A DNA stretch of 26,182 nt from an uncultured Phascolarctobacterium sp. (GTDB taxonomy: Bacteria; Bacillota; Negativicutes; Acidaminococcales; Acidaminococcaceae), in NCBI GenBank assembly GCA_949287345.1, contig CASEGD010000014.1, positions 1 to 26,182 on the forward strand. Direction: 5' to 3'. The notes beneath the pieces were generated by a model. The model saw only the letters and a program-made list of their open reading frames with translations. It searched no databases and was not told where the DNA came from. The translations under genes were made by a program, and so were the position numbers. The stretch's first letter is position 1. Each line of letters starts with the position of its first letter. Below are positions 9,331 to 18,666 of the stretch, piece after piece.

Positions 9331-11997
9331 ATGACGGCGAGATTGGACAGAAAAACAAAAATTTTAACGGCGGCGGTACTCTGCGCCTGCACAACGCTGT
9401 GGGCAAATCCGGTGTGGGCAGCAAGCGGCGGTAGTGCTAAAAATGGAGCTTATTATGGCGGAAGAAATACGGCTGTAAGTGGCAAAGTTGAAGGGAAGAC
9501 TGTAACTATTGAAACAGGGGATAATTTTAAAGGTGTTTATGGTGGTTATGCTTTTGAAGAGAAAATGGGATGGGGTAGCAATGAACCAATATTATCAAAA
9601 GAGAATCCAAATAATGAAGATGAGATGATACCTGGGAAATCACAGGCTAATAATAATAAAGTTATTATTAATGGGGGTACTGTGAATAGCGGATTGCTTA
9701 TGGGCGATAGTAGAAATCCGTTTTACGGTTCGATTGCAGGTGCTTGGTCGAATTATGCTTCTGGTAATGAAGTTGAAATGAATGACGGTACTTTTATTGG
9801 ACAATCAGTTTCACTTGGAGAGATGAGACCAGGCGTTTATGGCGCAATAGTATTAGTGAATGATAATAAGAGTGAAGATCATCCTGATATTATTAACAAT
9901 AGCGTTTATATTGGAAATGCTACAATAGATGGAGGAAATGTTGCTGGTGTTTATGTGGATGCGTTGAAAGCTGCTGGTAAAAATTCAAATAACAATAATG
10001 TAATAAAAAATAATTCAGTGATTATTGATGGAGCGATTATTCAATCTACTTCAAATTTATCAGGAAATATTTATGGTGCTTATTCTATTGATAATAATAG
10101 TATATTGGATGGAAATACAGTTACAATAAAAAGTGGTGAAATTACTTCGTCGAGTGCCGAATATGGTGGTGGTATTTATGGTGCTTGGGCTGATAGAGAA
10201 GGTAGTATTACGAATAATAATACTGTAATTATAGAAGGTGGAGAAATAAACGCAAATATTTATGGAGCGTATGGCTATCTTGTAAATGATGAAGATTCTG
10301 ACAAAAATGATGATATTGATGATTCAGTTATAACCGGTAATAAAGTTATAATCAGTGGTGGTACAATAAATGGCAAAGTTTATGCTGCTGATACACGTAG
10401 AATAGAAGGAACATTAAAAAATAACGGTATTGAAATAAGTGGTACTGCTAATTTATCTAATACTGAATTAGCTGGATATAGAGATGCACAAAAAATAGAA
10501 AAAGCTACAGATATTTATTTAAATATAAATGACTTTACGGGCAATGAAGGAAAAATAAAAGGAATAAATCATTTTAATATTGTTGATATAAGTAATAGTA
10601 TTGTTGATGCTGAAAGTGTTGATTATGTTGATGTAATTAATATAAAAAATCAAAATAAAAGTACTGTTAATTTAGGTAAAGTTAATACAAAATCAAATGA
10701 TGCTATGTCCGATTTTCAGAATGGAAGTATAATTAATACTGATTCAAAAATTAAAGCTCAATCTTTGGAAAATATAAATTCTATCAATGTCGATATGACT
10801 GCTATAAACTGGGAGAAAGACAGTGCCGTTATTGATGTAAGCGGTACTGCTGATTTGACGGGCACTGCTATCAGCGCCACCGGTACTTTGGCTGCGGCAG
10901 CGGGAACAGAAGTGCAAAACGGCGACACCATGAGCTTTATTAAAGCAGGTACTTTAACCGGCGCAACTGCAAATGATATTGATATTAGTAATCTGCAAAT
11001 AGGTTTTGCAACGGAAGCGCAGGTTGAAGTGCAGGACGGCGATAACAGCATTGATTTTGTCGTTACCGGTGCCAAGCAGGCAACGGAGCAGGTAAGCATT
11101 ATCGGCGAAAGCCGTACGGCTGCCATTGCTTTTGTAAATCAGGGCAGCGATATTTTAAACAATGCCTTTGGTTTGATGGATGACGGCAAATACGGCATTA
11201 AAACTTTTGCGGCGGCGCATGGCAATTACAGCAAGTACGAAACCGGCAGCCATATCCGTGTTAACGGCTGGAGCATGCTGGCGGGCGTCGTAAGCAGCGA
11301 AAAGGTTAATGACGGTACTTTCAGCTGGGGCGTATTTTTTGAAAACGGCAGCGGCAATTACCGTACTTATAACGATTACAACGGTTTTAATCTGGAAGGC
11401 TTCGGTAGTGCTGTTTACAATGGTGGCGGTGCGCTGGCGCGTTACCGCAGCAACGCAGGCAATTATGCCGAAGTTGGCGTGCGTGCCGGTATGCTGAAAA
11501 ACAGTTTGAGCAATGCGGTTGCCGACGGCTTTGGCGTGCAGGGCGGCTATGACGAGGATACCACTTATTATGGTGCGCATGTTGGCGCAGGTCGTATTTT
11601 TACGCTTGATGACCACAGCAGCCTTGATGTTTACGGCAAGTATTTCTATACGCATCACGACAGCGATGAGTTTGAAATTTTGGGCGATGAGGTAAGGTTT
11701 GATTCTGCCGACAGCAGCCGTTTGCGTTTGGGTATGCGCTATAACCAAAATGACGGCAACGCCTTCAGCCATTACTACGGTTTGGCATGGGATTATGAGT
11801 TTAACGGCGACGCTGATGTTACGGCGGCTGGCTTTGATACCGGCAATCCCAGTTTAAAAGGCAGCACGGCGGTAATTGAAGCGGGTATTCATTACGCGCC
11901 GGATAAATCTCCGTGGAGCGTTGACCTTGGCTTGCAGGGCTACGGCGGTCAGCGTGACGGTTTCAGCGGCACAATGCAGGTAAATTATTCGTTCTAA
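9331..11997 (+). CDS. Autotransporter with beta-helix passenger and C-terminal beta-barrel
   Basis: A type V secretion protein of 888 aa that carries its own outer-membrane pore. Residues 1-30 are a signal peptide (basic start, A-A-V-L-C-A-C-T-T-L, A-x-A-type cleavage near V-W-A-A). The passenger (about 31-500) has about nine imperfect repeats built on N-x-V-x-I-x-G-G-x-I followed by I-Y-G-A-Y, suggesting a beta-helix. It has no cysteines. The barrel domain starts near 587 and ends in the expected aromatic residue (V-N-Y-S-F). An in-frame TAG at 9322 rules out a longer N-terminus. The ribosome site is poor: GAGGAAAAG is about 14 bases away. The passenger is strikingly AT-rich, while the signal peptide and barrel match the rest of the genome. 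The substrate or adhesion target is unknown. Confidence 0.9.
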   Translation: MTARLDRKTKILTAAVLCACTTLWANPVWAASGGSAKNGAYYGGRNTAVSGKVEGKTVTIETGDNFKGVYGGYAFEEKMGWGSNEPILSKENPNNEDEMIPGKSQANNNKVIINGGTVNSGLLMGDSRNPFYGSIAGAWSNYASGNEVEMNDGTFIGQSVSLGEMRPGVYGAIVLVNDNKSEDHPDIINNSVYIGNATIDGGNVAGVYVDALKAAGKNSNNNNVIKNNSVIIDGAIIQSTSNLSGNIYGAYSIDNNSILDGNTVTIKSGEITSSSAEYGGGIYGAWADREGSITNNNTVIIEGGEINANIYGAYGYLVNDEDSDKNDDIDDSVITGNKVIISGGTINGKVYAADTRRIEGTLKNNGIEISGTANLSNTELAGYRDAQKIEKATDIYLNINDFTGNEGKIKGINHFNIVDISNSIVDAESVDYVDVINIKNQNKSTVNLGKVNTKSNDAMSDFQNGSIINTDSKIKAQSLENINSINVDMTAINWEKDSAVIDVSGTADLTGTAISATGTLAAAAGTEVQNGDTMSFIKAGTLTGATANDIDISNLQIGFATEAQVEVQDGDNSIDFVVTGAKQATEQVSIIGESRTAAIAFVNQGSDILNNAFGLMDDGKYGIKTFAAAHGNYSKYETGSHIRVNGWSMLAGVVSSEKVNDGTFSWGVFFENGSGNYRTYNDYNGFNLEGFGSAVYNGGGALARYRSNAGNYAEVGVRAGMLKNSLSNAVADGFGVQGGYDEDTTYYGAHVGAGRIFTLDDHSSLDVYGKYFYTHHDSDEFEILGDEVRFDSADSSRLRLGMRYNQNDGNAFSHYYGLAWDYEFNGDADVTAAGFDTGNPSLKGSTAVIEAGIHYAPDKSPWSVDLGLQGYGGQRDGFSGTMQVNYSF

Positions 11998-14528: not shown

Positions 14529-15842
14529 ATGCTGAAAAAATTTTATCATCCCAAATTATATATCGTGCTTGTTGTTATCGCGCTGGCGCTGACGGGCGCT
14601 TACTTTTGGCTGTGCCGCATGGCGGGCGATAAGGCGCTGGAGATTTTTAACCGCGAAATGGCAAGGCAGCATTTGCTGGAAGGCAGCTTGGCTGTTGAAA
14701 GCATCAGCGCCGATATGTGGGGCAACGTGGCTTTTAGCGGGCTGAAATGGCTGGACGCGGACGGCGAGCCGGTGGTGTTTGTGCCGGACGGGCATTTTAA
14801 GGTTAAGCCGTGGGACGTTGTTACCGGCAGCGTTAAGCTAAGCAGCTTGCAGGAGGCGGAGCTGAACAATCCGGTTATTGCCATCCGTTTTAATAAGGAG
14901 ATGCGCCCCAGCTTTTTGCCCAAGGCGAAGAAGAAAACGGAAGGCGCAGCCGAGCCGCGCAAACGCGGTTTGCACATTAATCTGCCGGATAATCTGCCGC
15001 AGAGCAGCATAAAAATAAATAACTGCACGCTGACCGCCAGTTACAGGCACCGCTATTTTGTGTTAAGCGGCGTTAATATCGCTGCGCGCAGCGAAAAGGC
15101 GGACGAGCTGAAGCTGAAAATTACGGCGAATAACCTTGGCGGTATGATGATTGGCGACGAGCTGGGCATCAGCGGCAAGGTGCTGCTTAACGGTGGCGAG
15201 ACGCAGTGCGATTTGTACCTGTCGCTGAAAAACGTCGTGCCGGAATCGCTGGGGCTGGGCAAGGTTAAGGACACCGCCAGCGTATACGGGCATGCCACCG
15301 GGTCTTTAGCAGGGCCTGTTATCGACGGGCGCATTGAATTTGCAGAGCTGAACATACCGGCGCTGCGTTTTTACAAGGTGAACGGCGACTTTTTGTATGA
15401 GGACGGGCATATTGACTTTAGTAACGTGACGGGCGGTATTTACGGCGGTACGGTGGAAGCGACGGGAACTTACGATATCGACAGCCGCGCTTACACCATT
15501 GACGCGCTGGGGCATGACTTGATGGCTTCCGTTGCAGCCAAAACCAGTAAAATTAACTGCCGCGTGGAGCTGGATTTAAAAATGCGCAGCGACGGCAACC
15601 CGCACAACGTGCTGACTTACGGCAGCTTTACCGGCGGCGCTGGCACTTACAGCCTGATACCGTTTGAAAGCATCAGCGGCAGCTTCAGCGACCAGAACGG
15701 CGTGCTGCAATTTACGGACGTAAAAATAAAAACGCCGCTGGGCGAAGTAACCAGCGACGCTTTTGAAATCGTCAAAGGGCGCGTGCATATTAAAGATATT
15801 TTCCTCACCGCCCCGCAGGGCGAACGGATACAGATAAAATAA
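14529..15842 (+). CDS. AsmA/TamB-like inner-membrane-anchored envelope protein
   Basis: A protein of 437 aa with one N-terminal membrane helix (about 10-28) and a long periplasmic part rich in beta strands. Typical phrases are S-I-S-A-D-M-W-G-N-V-A-F-S-G-L, K-V-K-P-W-D-V-V-T-G, Y-G-G-T-V-E-A-T-G-T-Y-D-I and S-G-S-F-S-D-Q-N-G-V-L. These match the repeating groove of AsmA, TamB and YhdP-like proteins, which in diderms help move lipids or build the outer membrane. It is much shorter than TamB, so I cannot assign it to one subfamily. It stands alone with its own promoter. No terminator separates it from the next gene, which has its own promoter. Confidence 0.6.
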   Translation: MLKKFYHPKLYIVLVVIALALTGAYFWLCRMAGDKALEIFNREMARQHLLEGSLAVESISADMWGNVAFSGLKWLDADGEPVVFVPDGHFKVKPWDVVTGSVKLSSLQEAELNNPVIAIRFNKEMRPSFLPKAKKKTEGAAEPRKRGLHINLPDNLPQSSIKINNCTLTASYRHRYFVLSGVNIAARSEKADELKLKITANNLGGMMIGDELGISGKVLLNGGETQCDLYLSLKNVVPESLGLGKVKDTASVYGHATGSLAGPVIDGRIEFAELNIPALRFYKVNGDFLYEDGHIDFSNVTGGIYGGTVEATGTYDIDSRAYTIDALGHDLMASVAAKTSKINCRVELDLKMRSDGNPHNVLTYGSFTGGAGTYSLIPFESISGSFSDQNGVLQFTDVKIKTPLGEVTSDAFEIVKGRVHIKDIFLTAPQGERIQIK

Positions 15843-15856
15843 AATTTTGAATAGTT

Positions 15857-15885
15857 TTGCCTATTAAAATAATTGGTGATAGAAT
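15857..15885 (+). promoter_or_regulatory. Promoter of the AT-rich two-gene cassette
   Basis: TTGCCT (15857-15862) and TAGAAT (15880-15885) with a 17-base spacer. The boxes match consensus at 4 of 6 and 5 of 6 positions, and lie 31 bases before the first start codon. Confidence 0.55.
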
Positions 15886-15915
15886 AATTATATAAAATAT
15901 TTGAGAGGATGTATT

Positions 15916-16821
15916 TTGATAATGGGTATATTTGATGCTACAAGGGCAGGAATGATGATGGGATCTAATAATGGGTACAATTCATATAATAAACATATAC
16001 AATTTGATGAATATGTGAAGATGGTAATAGACGATAATTATTTTGTTGATAGGCTTCCTCTTGATGATGATATAAAAGAATTGCTTGCTAAATCTGATTT
16101 TTTGAGAAGCCGAAATAATTATAAACATCTTTGGTTTGCTGATGGTATAGTCGATTTATCAGACCCCAGTAGATTTAAATGGTCAGTTGAAGAATATAAA
16201 GAATATGGCTATAAAATAGAAATTACTGAAAGTTTGCCTGCTTTTATATTTAATTGTATAAAGACTGCAAGAATGTTACAAGAACAAAGAAGCAATTATA
16301 ATATTAAAGTTGATAATACTAGTCGGTTGGAAGAAGAAATACATTATTTAAGTGAAATAATTGATCGGTTAAGAGAAATTCGAAATAGTGTTTATGAAAG
16401 ATTTGGAAAAAAGTATAATATTTCTCCAGAAGAAATAGGCGCGATGATACTTAAATCCGATAAAAAATTTGGATTTTATTTAGGTAAAAATGTACGATCA
16501 ATAAATCTGAAAAAGATAGAAATAGGTTCTCTTGGAATTACGGCTGGTATTTTGACAATTGGTTTATTTTGGACTTTTCTCGGTAATAGAAAAGAAAAAA
16601 ATATTTTAAAAGGTAGAGAAGAAGCTAGAAAAATTTTTGAAAAATGTTTAATGGAAATAAGTGATAGTTTTAATAAGAAAATAGAATCTTACATAAAAGA
16701 AAATAACTTTATGAATACTAAAGAAAAAGAACTAATAACATTAAAAAGCAAATGTTACTATATTTTATCATTATTAAATTTAGAAATTCAAACCGTAAAT
16801 AATTTATGTAAAGAGGAATAG
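15916..16821 (+). CDS. Unknown protein with one membrane helix, first gene of AT-rich cassette
   Basis: A protein of about 301 aa; I do not recognise a family. I prefer the TTG at 15916, seven bases after GAGAGG. The ATG at 15922 is the alternative, and TTG at 15901 precedes the ribosome site. The N-terminal third is soluble, with L-S-D-P-S-R-F-K-W and aromatic residues. Residues about 135-165 look like a charged coiled coil. One clear membrane helix lies at about 205-223 (L-G-I-T-A-G-I-L-T-I-G-L-F-W-T-F). A Lys/Glu-rich helical tail follows. Codon use is very AT-biased (TTA, AGA, ATA), unlike the flanking genes. The stop is two bases before the next ATG, so the two are coupled. Confidence 0.75.
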   Translation: MIMGIFDATRAGMMMGSNNGYNSYNKHIQFDEYVKMVIDDNYFVDRLPLDDDIKELLAKSDFLRSRNNYKHLWFADGIVDLSDPSRFKWSVEEYKEYGYKIEITESLPAFIFNCIKTARMLQEQRSNYNIKVDNTSRLEEEIHYLSEIIDRLREIRNSVYERFGKKYNISPEEIGAMILKSDKKFGFYLGKNVRSINLKKIEIGSLGITAGILTIGLFWTFLGNRKEKNILKGREEARKIFEKCLMEISDSFNKKIESYIKENNFMNTKEKELITLKSKCYYILSLLNLEIQTVNNLCKEE

Positions 16822-16823
16822 TA

Positions 16824-18014
16824 ATGAATAATATAAATCAAGAACTGGAAAAAATTAAAGCAGATATTGGTGCAAGTAAAGAGAGAAGAACTATAATTGA
16901 TGAAGAATGTCTGAGTAGTTTACAAAAACAAATCGAAATTACTAATTACATTTATCATGCACCGGAAAGAATATCTGATTTAGCCAAAGAGTTTGAAAAT
17001 AAAACAAAGTTGACAGGTCAAGATGTTTCAATTTTATTTGTAGCGATAGGTTTACAAATCATCAGACAATTTCTACAAGAGAAAATCTCTTTTCCTGAAG
17101 AACGTCTTGATGATCAAACTGCCGCAGGCAAGCATAATTATAGTAAAGAAGAAAGAAATAAAGGATATTATAATCCAAGTTTATCAGAAATAGTAACAAA
17201 GCCTGTACCATTCGATGTAATTGATGGGGCAGATGGTAAATTTAAAGGTAGTGGAAAATTTGGACATAGAGGAAAAACATTAGGACATGACCCATTATTA
17301 GGATTAGTATTTGGCACTGCTAATATTGCAACAGCAACAGTTACATTAACGCATGGGAATTTTAATTATGAATCATATCATGTTAGAACTAATGAAAGAA
17401 ACAGAGATAGCTTTGCTGAGCATGCAGATACGATAAAAGTTTTAAAATATACAATAGACAAAATAGTAAATAATACAGGTAAAGATGGACGAGAACGAGT
17501 TGCGGCAGCGTTTGCTAAAGAAATTGTTCATTTAAAATCTGATGAGAATACTAAAAAAAGTCTACCGTTGCCTATATTGACTTCAATTTCTCCTGAATTA
17601 GCAGGGAAATTAGCTGAATATGGCTTAGATTGTGCTAACTTATTATACGTTGGTAAACAATTAGAAGTAATAGGAAAACAAGCTGGTTATGCCATTTTTA
17701 TTAATTATCTCGTATCAATTTTTCATCGATTGTTTTTTGATGGAACGACCAAAGAAGAAGAAAAATTATACGAAGTAAGAACAAGAAAAATTATTGCTTT
17801 TTCTAATGTAATATCATCAGCTTTTAATTTAGGTATTTGCGGTTTTGCTGCGTATAATGGTGGTTATAAAAAAGCAGTTGAAAATCTTGATATCGGTGGA
17901 TTGTGTGTAACCGTCTATAGAGTAATAACAGATACTAAATTTATAAATAAGGTTAGACATGAATTAGTAATTGGTACGTTTAGAAAAGAAATAGAAGAAA
18001 TTTTAAATTCATAA
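16824..18014 (+). CDS. Unknown protein with GHDPLLGLVFGTANI motif, second gene of AT-rich cassette
   Basis: A protein of 396 aa; I cannot name a family. Residues 1-65 look helical and charged. Residues 67-84 are hydrophobic. The centre has F-G-H-R-G-K-T-L-G-H-D-P-L-L-G-L-V-F-G-T-A-N-I (about 146-168), then S-Y-H-V and a stretch with H-A-D-T-I-K-V. The two His-containing clusters look like a conserved, possibly catalytic or metal-binding core. Later hydrophobic stretches (Y-A-I-F-I-N-Y-L-V-S-I-F; N-V-I-S-S-A-F-N-L-G-I-C-G-F-A-A-Y) could insert in or lie on a membrane. The AGAGGA ribosome site lies in the end of the previous gene. Base composition shows the same AT bias as its partner. Function is unknown. 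A two-gene defence or toxin unit is one guess from the context. Confidence 0.75.
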   Translation: MNNINQELEKIKADIGASKERRTIIDEECLSSLQKQIEITNYIYHAPERISDLAKEFENKTKLTGQDVSILFVAIGLQIIRQFLQEKISFPEERLDDQTAAGKHNYSKEERNKGYYNPSLSEIVTKPVPFDVIDGADGKFKGSGKFGHRGKTLGHDPLLGLVFGTANIATATVTLTHGNFNYESYHVRTNERNRDSFAEHADTIKVLKYTIDKIVNNTGKDGRERVAAAFAKEIVHLKSDENTKKSLPLPILTSISPELAGKLAEYGLDCANLLYVGKQLEVIGKQAGYAIFINYLVSIFHRLFFDGTTKEEEKLYEVRTRKIIAFSNVISSAFNLGICGFAAYNGGYKKAVENLDIGGLCVTVYRVITDTKFINKVRHELVIGTFRKEIEEILNS

Positions 18015-18019
18015 AAGTA

Positions 18020-18062
18020 TATAAAAATAGCGTATGCGTTTAATGCATACGCTATTTTTATA
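18020..18062. terminator. Bidirectional terminator between the cassette and arsR
   Basis: A perfect 18-bp inverted repeat (18020-18037 with 18045-18062) with a 7-base loop. The GC core GCGTATGC is flanked by A5/T5, so it can stop transcription from both converging genes. Confidence 0.85.
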
Positions 18063-18071
18063 ACTCTTAAA

Positions 18072-18395
18072 TTATACACGATGTTTGATGTGGTCCAGCG
18101 CCTGGGCGAACAGGGTTAATACATGCTGGTCGTCAAGGCTGTAAAATACTTCCTTGCCGGTTTTGGTAAATTTAACCAGCCCCGCATGGCGCAGAAGCCT
18201 TAACTGATGTGAAATGGCGGATTGCGTCATCTCCAAAGAATCCGCGATATTCGTCACGCAGGCTTCGCCTTCGGCAAGCAGCGCCAGAATACGGATGCGC
18301 GTCGGGTCGCCCAGCACTTTAAAGGTATCAGCCATGGGCTGCACAAATTTTTCGGCAATGGGCACGTCCAGTTTTAAAGTTTTTTCTTCACTCAT
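18072..18395 (-). CDS. ArsR/SmtB-family metal-sensing repressor (zinc/cobalt/nickel type)
   Basis: A winged-helix repressor of 107 aa. The recognition helix region lies at about 47-72 (V-T-N-I-A-D-S-L-E-M-T-Q-S-A-I-S-H-Q-L-R). Near the C-terminus, Asp89, His91, His102 and His105 are spaced D-x-H-x10-H-x2-H. That is the alpha-5 metal site of CzrA/SmtB-type sensors, where zinc (or cobalt/nickel) binding releases DNA. No arsenic-type C-V-C site is present. I start at the ATG at 18395, seven bases after AAGAGGTGA; a longer reading to 18452 lies inside the upstream gene. It is the last gene of the thiW operon. The regulated gene is not known and may be the operon itself. Confidence 0.85.
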   Translation of the reverse strand: MSEEKTLKLDVPIAEKFVQPMADTFKVLGDPTRIRILALLAEGEACVTNIADSLEMTQSAISHQLRLLRHAGLVKFTKTGKEVFYSLDDQHVLTLFAQALDHIKHRV

Positions 18396-18399
18396 AATC

Positions 18400-18666
18400 T
18401 CACCTCTTAATGCCCTTGCTGAAAAAGAAAAGCAGTACGGCGTAATACACAAAGCTGCCCATCACGGTGCGGGTTGAAAATAACAGCGGGAACACGATAA
18501 ACGCCAGAAGCAGCACGCAAAGCTGCACAATAGCGCTCAATAATCCGCGCGAGCGGACGGCACGCCATGCCAGCACGCTGTAACGCGAGGCAAAAATGCC
18601 AAAGAAAAAACCGCTGAGCACGTATAGAATTTGCGAAAGTAAATTATCAAGGTTAAAATCCATCAT
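18400..18666 (-). CDS. Small membrane protein, unknown
   Basis: A protein of 88 aa, mostly hydrophobic, with about three membrane helices (I-L-Y-V-L-S-G-F-F-F-G-I-F-A; L-L-S-A-I-V-Q-L-C-V-L-L-L-A-F-I-V-F; F-V-Y-Y-A-V-L-L-F-F-F). I do not recognise the family. Its start overlaps the thiW stop by four bases (ATGA), and its own stop overlaps the arsR ribosome site, so the three genes are translationally coupled. It has no metal-binding His/Cys cluster that would mark it as a metal exporter. A role next to ThiW in transport is possible but only inferred. Confidence 0.7.
   Translation of the reverse strand: MMDFNLDNLLSQILYVLSGFFFGIFASRYSVLAWRAVRSRGLLSAIVQLCVLLLAFIVFPLLFSTRTVMGSFVYYAVLLFFFSKGIKR

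Follow-up and report, generated by a model that had tools for sequence, protein, structure and literature searches.

A segment of about 2.2 kilobases (kb), inserted in the genome of an uncultured Phascolarctobacterium sp., carries two adjacent genes, of which the second (gene 2), judged by profile matches, encodes a homologue of BnzB and the first (gene 1) an orphan membrane protein. Both lie on a stretch of 26,182 nucleotides (nt) from contig CASEGD010000014.1 of assembly GCA_949287345.1, a genome in 207 contigs; this whole stretch is called the window below. On balance we consider the pair to be probably a horizontally acquired two-gene module of Bunzi (BnzB) type, a candidate for anti-phage defence in which the membrane partner is divergent; this reading is drawn from sequence comparison.

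A BnzB-family signature in gene 2

Gene 2 matched the PADLOC BnzB model over residues 122-328 with an expectation value (E) of 3e-17 and 60.9 bits, and all 83 of 83 aligned members, that is gene 2 and 82 relatives, matched it as well. The alignment comprises the window protein and 82 of 84 loci, L051 and L106 having been left out as truncated while L090, also truncated, was kept. On this profile evidence gene 2 can be taken as a BnzB homologue. Fifteen positions are invariant in the 83 proteins (F57, D131, H148, G154, H155, D156, G160, G164, T165, N167, I168, T174, H236, D240 and P250), and in a set of 94 proteins that includes more distant BnzB, D156 is conserved in 90 and each of H148, H155, H236 and D240 in 92-93. 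Such a conserved set of histidine and aspartate residues would suit a metal-binding or catalytic site. The unusual core that the first-pass annotation had pointed out in the second protein (GHDPLLGLVFGTANI) is indeed present, and corresponds to the signature of the BnzB family. The several hydrophobic stretches ascribed to the same protein are seen as five moderately hydrophobic peaks of the family average (residues 77, 167, 296, 332 and 366), none of which reaches 1.6 in the window protein itself.

Searches of Pfam and NCBIfam gave no match for gene 2, the best PHROGs match had an E of only 0.65, and a search of solved structures returned only coiled coils, matching the N-terminal part at E 1.6 or worse. 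The distribution of the family is patchy. Among 100 relatives, homologues of gene 2 were present only in its own genome and in Phascolarctobacterium sp. ET69; at the level of the class they were found in 13 of 380 genomes, and the BnzB model finds 10 of 398 genomes of the phylum, two of them marginal, the own genome being included in both counts. A profile scan of genome contigs confirmed 104 relatives, of which 80 were kept, and 4 more came from viral contigs, while a single-sequence pattern scan of genome contigs for close relatives of gene 2 confirmed none.

An insertion at an otherwise empty site

All 6 of the genomes compared within the genus, the own genome included, have the AsmA-like and ThiW genes that flank the pair. 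In the other five the site is empty (5 of 5), and the flanks are joined by a short spacer. The alignment to three of these congeners (L138-L140) ends at 15844 and restarts at 18072, with 24 nt and a different hairpin in between; for L142 it ends at 15844 and restarts at 18082, and for the more distant ET69 (L141) it restarts at 18021. The segment is thus an insertion of about 2.2 kb that was horizontally acquired. The acquired unit suspected in the first-pass annotation is borne out by this empty site, and comparison of the locus in relatives did not show homologues that are ancestral and syntenic in all of them.

Base composition is in line with this origin. The GC content is 26% in gene 1 and 30% in gene 2, and at third codon positions it is 0.166 and 0.139, respectively, against 0.54-0.67 in the flanking genes (pdxK-like, asmA-like, arsR, thiW and CoA-transferase), so that the AT-rich block with codons unlike those of its neighbours, as described earlier, is real. 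Neither an integrase reading frame nor a flanking repeat was recognised next to the pair, as had already been noted, and no similar DNA was found in phage records.

The hairpin at 18020-18062 resembles that of ET69, and the terminator may therefore belong to the site and not to the cargo; if it is native, the 3' limit of the inserted segment may lie at about 18020. The spacer between the AsmA-like and arsR genes (window 15843-18071 compared with L138-L142) bears different hairpins in different congeners, and terminators at this site seem to have been replaced as units.

Partner genes of the BnzB relatives

Partners were tallied at 92 loci as same-strand neighbours within three genes, and the groups were named from local profiles and by inspection. 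A WYL regulator was found at 26 loci, a TerB-like gene at 26, a coiled-coil/membrane gene at 17 and a glycine-zipper gene at 17 (15 + 2); further groups are a 139-amino-acid group (8) and smaller ones that include dynamin-like GTPases (3), and no partner was recognised at 16 loci, which include that of the window. Pfam matches in 86 partners were Dynamin_N (3), beta-helix (4) and leucine-rich repeats (1); Pfam TerB was matched at L029 (E 1.8e-7) and weakly at L030 (0.019), and the large TerB-like partners of L049, L061 and L034 gave no Pfam match whatever. The PADLOC BnzA model matches 12 of the 86. These comparisons establish the BnzB relatives, as judged from their gene neighbourhoods, as one conserved core gene beside locus-specific partners. 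The idea that the two genes of the window always travel as a pair is not upheld, since relatives of gene 2 are accompanied by a variety of partners and the searches made turned up gene 1 at no other locus. The membrane link proposed in the same annotation fared better: the single membrane helix that it saw in the first protein is recovered, as the only hydrophobic stretch of gene 1 (Table 1), and 42 of 88 loci (window included) have an adjacent gene with a strongly hydrophobic stretch.

A quick tree was made of 82 homologues of gene 2, without L090, and 68 of them carry a partner label. Partner type follows this tree: it requires 16 changes, against a mean of 38.3 when labels are shuffled (0 of 200 shuffles as low) and a possible minimum of 5. 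In this tree the window protein groups with L028 and L030 as a starred set of three, in which its pairing with L030 has a support of only 55%. L028 has two related upstream genes encoding helical partners, and L030 has a membrane protein downstream, which matches TerB weakly and whose motif score slightly exceeds the control threshold (see below). The surrounding starred set of 12 loci contains 7 with coiled-coil/membrane partners, with L030 in another class and the window, L028, L044 and L046 unclassed. Further out, in a starred set of 18, L029 encodes a TerB protein and, apart from it, a membrane/motif protein with a motif score of 31.3.

Several partners deserve mention in their own right. 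The large partners at L049 (7072-8961) and L061 (7077-9254), and others like them, have in common an N-terminal part that is TerB-like by the local profile, and differ in their C-terminal parts; such differing C-termini, and the beta-helix or leucine-rich repeats matched among the 86 partners, would suit variable sensors. The upstream partners of L093, L097, L101, L104 and L105, and a gene of a phage record (L020, 682-1293), encode glycine/alanine-rich hydrophobic hairpins (GLSAAGITSGLA...GGGMAAG), and L105, the one hairpin partner tested singly, matched BnzA at E 1.5e-12. By eye, we take these hairpins to resemble the interferon-induced IFI6/27-type proteins of animals. L054 has two BnzB homologues at one locus, each with a gene of the TerB-like group near it. 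Finally, open frames of about 800 codons at L009 and L010 (genomes G290 and G329) join a BnzB-like domain to a second hydrophobic part, a natural fusion which suggests that the two parts work together.

A motif shared among partners

Partners that otherwise look unrelated have in common the motif G-x3-[AGS]-x3-[FY]-E-x-K, which occurs in 33 of 126 adjacent genes, compared with 1 of 435 genes at a distance of at least four places and a mean of 0.2 in shuffled partners. The tally covers adjacent same-strand genes at -60 to 100 base pairs (bp), 126 in number or 127 with the window, and includes WYL genes (14 of 127); the partner at L029, missed by the gene caller and found by hand, lies outside it. 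The motif was spotted by eye before testing, and the enrichment is therefore exploratory. By a weight matrix, whose 15 training sequences come from partners included in the motif counts, 52 of 88 loci (window included) have an adjacent carrier above the threshold passed by 1% of controls. The motif stands beside a membrane helix in some partners and near the N-terminus in others.

In gene 1 the best match to the motif, ILKGREEARKIFEKCLMEIS (residues 235-254), comes directly after the single membrane helix. Of 5000 shuffles, 27 reach its weight-matrix score of 7.7, as do 77 of 5000 shuffles by heptad block and 2 of the 435 control genes. A loose form of the motif begins at residue 238, and 103 of 5000 shuffles also contain such a form. 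A similar stretch, GADYARKIYE, is found in the adjacent partner of L028, a member of the same starred set of three. We propose that this motif may dock the partner to the BnzB-like core.

Defence genes and plasmid relatives

Genes flanking the BnzB relatives were compared with PADLOC in a sample of 142 of 150 picked genes from 76 loci. Among the families listed (the best 25 of 155) were GajA, GajB, RT-Toprim, HerA, AbiU, PDC-S01, PDC-S04 and PDC-S25, with best E values from 6e-74 to 7e-217, whereas 60 control genes beside YdjM genes, taken from a different genome set, matched only the DndA, SspA, E1-E2 and C3a212 models (best E 5e-65). Homologues of gene 2 annotated as 'hypothetical protein' are also carried by the lactococcal plasmids pNP40 (L019) and pLLI11B (L017) and by a plasmid of Lachnospira eligens (L018), at 39-46% identity over 84-89% of the protein. 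The first-pass annotation had suggested a possible defence or toxin system, and the BnzB homology of gene 2, together with the location of its relatives near Gabija, reverse-transcriptase, HerA, AbiU and further defence genes and on lactococcal plasmids, among them pNP40, which is known for phage resistance, speaks for defence.

Unlike the window, each of the three plasmid loci has a WYL gene upstream. Their partners are a coiled-coil/membrane protein on pLLI11B, a dynamin-like GTPase on the L. eligens plasmid and, on pNP40, a protein with an EF-Tu-like C-terminal domain. The last (L019 6092-7552; pNP40 33611-35071) ends in a domain like domain 3 of EF-Tu (PF03143, E 7.1e-23), which could possibly serve as a bait for phage factors that touch EF-Tu. 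Besides its gene 2 homologue, pNP40 carries LlaJI, an Abi-family gene and AbiE. In 1996 Garvey et al. reported a third resistance mechanism of this plasmid, which affects the penetration of phage DNA, and a 2021 paper lists AbiE, AbiF and LlaJI (PMC8194271). The BnzB pair of pNP40 (33611-36300) is a candidate cause of this block to DNA entry.

Comparison with known systems

Bunzi is reported to be a tested anti-phage system (Millman et al. 2022). The window pair resembles Bunzi (BnzA and BnzB) in the match of gene 2 to BnzB, in the adjacent, co-oriented two-gene arrangement with a membrane partner, and in that TerB stands beside the core at some family loci, clearly at L029 and only weakly at L030. 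It differs in that gene 1 has neither a BnzA match nor a TerB domain and contains one single helix, whereas the BnzA-matching partner of L105 has a glycine-rich hairpin. Membership in Bunzi proper is not claimed, because both BnzA and TerB were looked for in gene 1 and neither was found. In the literature, TerB is listed for Shango and Bunzi with activity given as N/A (PMC10952713), Bunzi is placed among the systems of unknown mechanism (PMC12926258) and BnzA/BnzB are reported in an Aeromonas trota strain (PMC11206119); judged by title, none of the best literature matches was a paper on the mechanism of BnzA/BnzB.

The locus of Phascolarctobacterium sp. ET69 (L002/L086) is similar to that of the window in having a homologue of gene 2 (37% identical) with an upstream partner at a 2-base gap. 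It lies at a different site, has a WYL gene upstream, and its partner is a membrane protein of 180 amino acids of TerB-like look, which was recovered by a local TerB profile that included it and has no Pfam TerB match. Some partners of BnzB relatives also match Eleos (LeoA, LeoBC) or PDC-M09 (at E 0.01, LeoBC 16, LeoA 7 and PDC-M09A at most 5 of 86), unlike the window pair, for which no match was obtained (gene 1 against PDC-M09A, only E 0.02).

Proposed mode of action

From the anatomy of the two proteins we suggest a division of roles in which the membrane partner senses and holds and the core acts. The product of gene 1 would be the partner of gene 2 at this locus; it would sit in the membrane, where its N-terminal part, unique to gene 1, would sense infection or the consequences of infection, and its motif would hold the gene 2 protein. 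Infection would alter this hold, and the gene 2 protein, with its moderately hydrophobic helices and the invariant H148, H155, D156, H236 and D240, would then act at the membrane, with the outcome that either the phage or the cell stops.

It is tempting to go further, if only tentatively, and to regard the BnzB family as a common membrane-acting core into which many unrelated sensors may plug via one short docking motif, the catalogued Bunzi being then no more than a branch of a modular immune family of sensors and cores, and the window pair another, with an uncharacterised sensor. If this were true, the sensors would bear exchangeable domains, at least one of which, the EF-Tu C-terminal domain of pNP40, would be a look-alike of a host protein that phages may touch, and maybe a bait. 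The alignment of the family yields a small set of invariant residues for testing, and the partner motif a testable idea of how different partners could be joined to one core.

Points against a Bunzi-like module and alternative readings

A number of results weigh against the Bunzi-like reading of the pair. The BnzB model is matched by gene 2 only over positions 230-433 of 504 (about 40%), and gene 1 has no significant match to BnzA (PADLOC, E up to 1), to TerB or to any family. Tests of the kinship of gene 1 to known BnzB partners, for which the coiled-coil/membrane proteins of L017, L023-L026, L068, L071 and L075 were used, gave a mixed outcome: the profile of full-length partners gives 8.7 bits (E 0.11), a weak score that lies above all 401 decoys; the C-terminal coiled-coil profile misses gene 1, whose score is equalled by 272 of 958, 438 of 989 and 461 of 994 reported decoys of three kinds; and the best phmmer match is L071 (E 0.0013 in a small partner set, 0.013 by blastp). 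The local TerB profile scores -2.3 bits, no better than shuffles. As to the motif, 36 of 88 loci have no adjacent carrier, the strict form does not occur in gene 1, and the partner of L028 fails by the weight matrix (-2.0).

A TerB domain concealed in gene 1 was considered separately and is unsupported, its scores being at shuffle level: with six single TerB queries, the share of reported shuffles that do equally well ranges from 16 of 397 to 257 of 479, and Pfam TerB was found in neither gene 1 nor gene 2 at E up to 0.5.

Among the other readings, it is doubtful that gene 2 is a metal-dependent membrane hydrolase, a distant kin of the YdjM-like inner-membrane putative hydrolases (PF04307), which cuts a lipid or another membrane substrate upon infection. 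By eye, the order of motifs and their spacing are similar (P-x-D, H-R-x2-T-x2-H-D, H-x3-D, then S/G-L-P), the residues concerned are among those conserved nearly throughout the 94 proteins, and short local hhalign alignments set H-x3-D upon H-x3-D. The profile comparisons are nevertheless not significant: the best hmmsearch score is 3.7 bits, obtained with a profile built from 21 YdjM-type proteins out of 30 loci, compared with up to 5.5 for shuffled BnzB proteins, the hhalign P-value is 0.34 at best, and Pfam YdjM is absent from the best 25 of 61 families for 83 members. YdjM-like homology was on these grounds dropped as a claim and is kept as a rival only. A PAP2-type phosphatase was also considered and set aside, as no conserved Arg/Lys set seemed to fit.

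It is unlikely that the module is orphaned or decaying, gene 2 having lost its proper partner and gene 1 being unrelated cargo. Such a state would account for the lack of a gene 1 homologue beyond E 0.001-0.05 in the 380 genomes of the class and the 398 of the phylum (best non-self E 0.0011 and 0.0014, respectively), in 0 of 99 other relatives and on plasmids and viral contigs (genome contigs were not scanned with gene 1). It would also fit the presence of TerB at the related loci L029 and, weakly, L030 and not at the window, and the absence of a recognised WYL regulator within three genes of the pair. Yet neither frame is interrupted, the 2-base gap between them has its like at L086, none of the residues invariant among the other 82 proteins is changed in gene 2, and gene 1 shows the order of membrane helix followed by motif.

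Less likely still is a toxin-antitoxin or addiction pair that serves its own upkeep and has no part in phage defence. The genes are coupled on an insertion, and one may neutralise the other; against this stand the lack of a significant match to any toxin or antitoxin family, the defence genes near relatives of gene 2, and the name of the BnzB family, taken from a system reportedly tested against phages. That the two genes serve the host membrane or envelope, as the adjoining AsmA-like gene might suggest, is hardly credible for a pair that is absent at the site from 5 of 5 congeners and has a foreign third-position base composition.

Coordinates and other features of the window

Table 1. Positions of the gene pair and of associated features in the window
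Feature	Position	Strand	Remark
Gene 1	15901-16821	+	306 amino acids, TTG start; orphan partner, N-terminal part without family match, one membrane helix
Predicted membrane helix of gene 1, residues 208-228	16522-16584	+	Hydropathy scan (1.65)
Weak match to the partner motif within gene 1, residues 238-247 (GREEARKIFE)	16612-16641	+	10 residues past the helix
Gene 2	16824-18014	+	396 amino acids, ATG start; BnzB-family core protein
Family signature GHDPLLGLVFGTANI, residues 154-168	17283-17327	+	Invariant G154, H155, D156, G160, G164, T165, N167 and I168
Invariant H236-x3-D240 (HLKSD)	17529-17543	+	Family alignment
Inserted segment, 2227 bp, between AsmA-like and convergent arsR genes	15845-18071	.	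Alignment to congeners
Promoter-like site TTGCCT-17-TAGAAT, extended TG	15857-15885	+	Frequency at chance level
Terminator hairpin between convergent genes	18020-18062	.	Arms and hairpin scan

Both open reading frames are as first annotated, and the gap between them is exactly 2 bases. Gene 1 has alternative in-frame starts at TTG 15916 (301 amino acids) and ATG 15922 (299 amino acids), and GAGAGG is found at 15903-15908. The pair had also been credited with its own promoter and terminator. The terminator is recovered, with arms of 21 nt (18020-18040 and 18042-18062) that are 95% complementary, and was called by the scan with 18 pairs and a 7-nt loop, on the - strand only; the promoter-like site is present, but such sites are as frequent as expected by chance (14 observed against 14.0). 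The upstream neighbour is the AsmA-like gene at 14529-15842 (PF05170, E 0.011, under the cut-off) and the downstream one a convergent ArsR-family gene at 18072-18452.

Elsewhere in the window, positions 9331-11997 (+) encode a protein of 888 amino acids for which no match was obtained in Pfam, NCBIfam or PADLOC at the thresholds used, and in PHROGs only one of E 0.21. It has a signal-peptide-like start and a C-terminal part that by eye resembles an autotransporter barrel, and the DNA at 9501-11000 has a GC content of 30-36%, compared with about 51% behind it.

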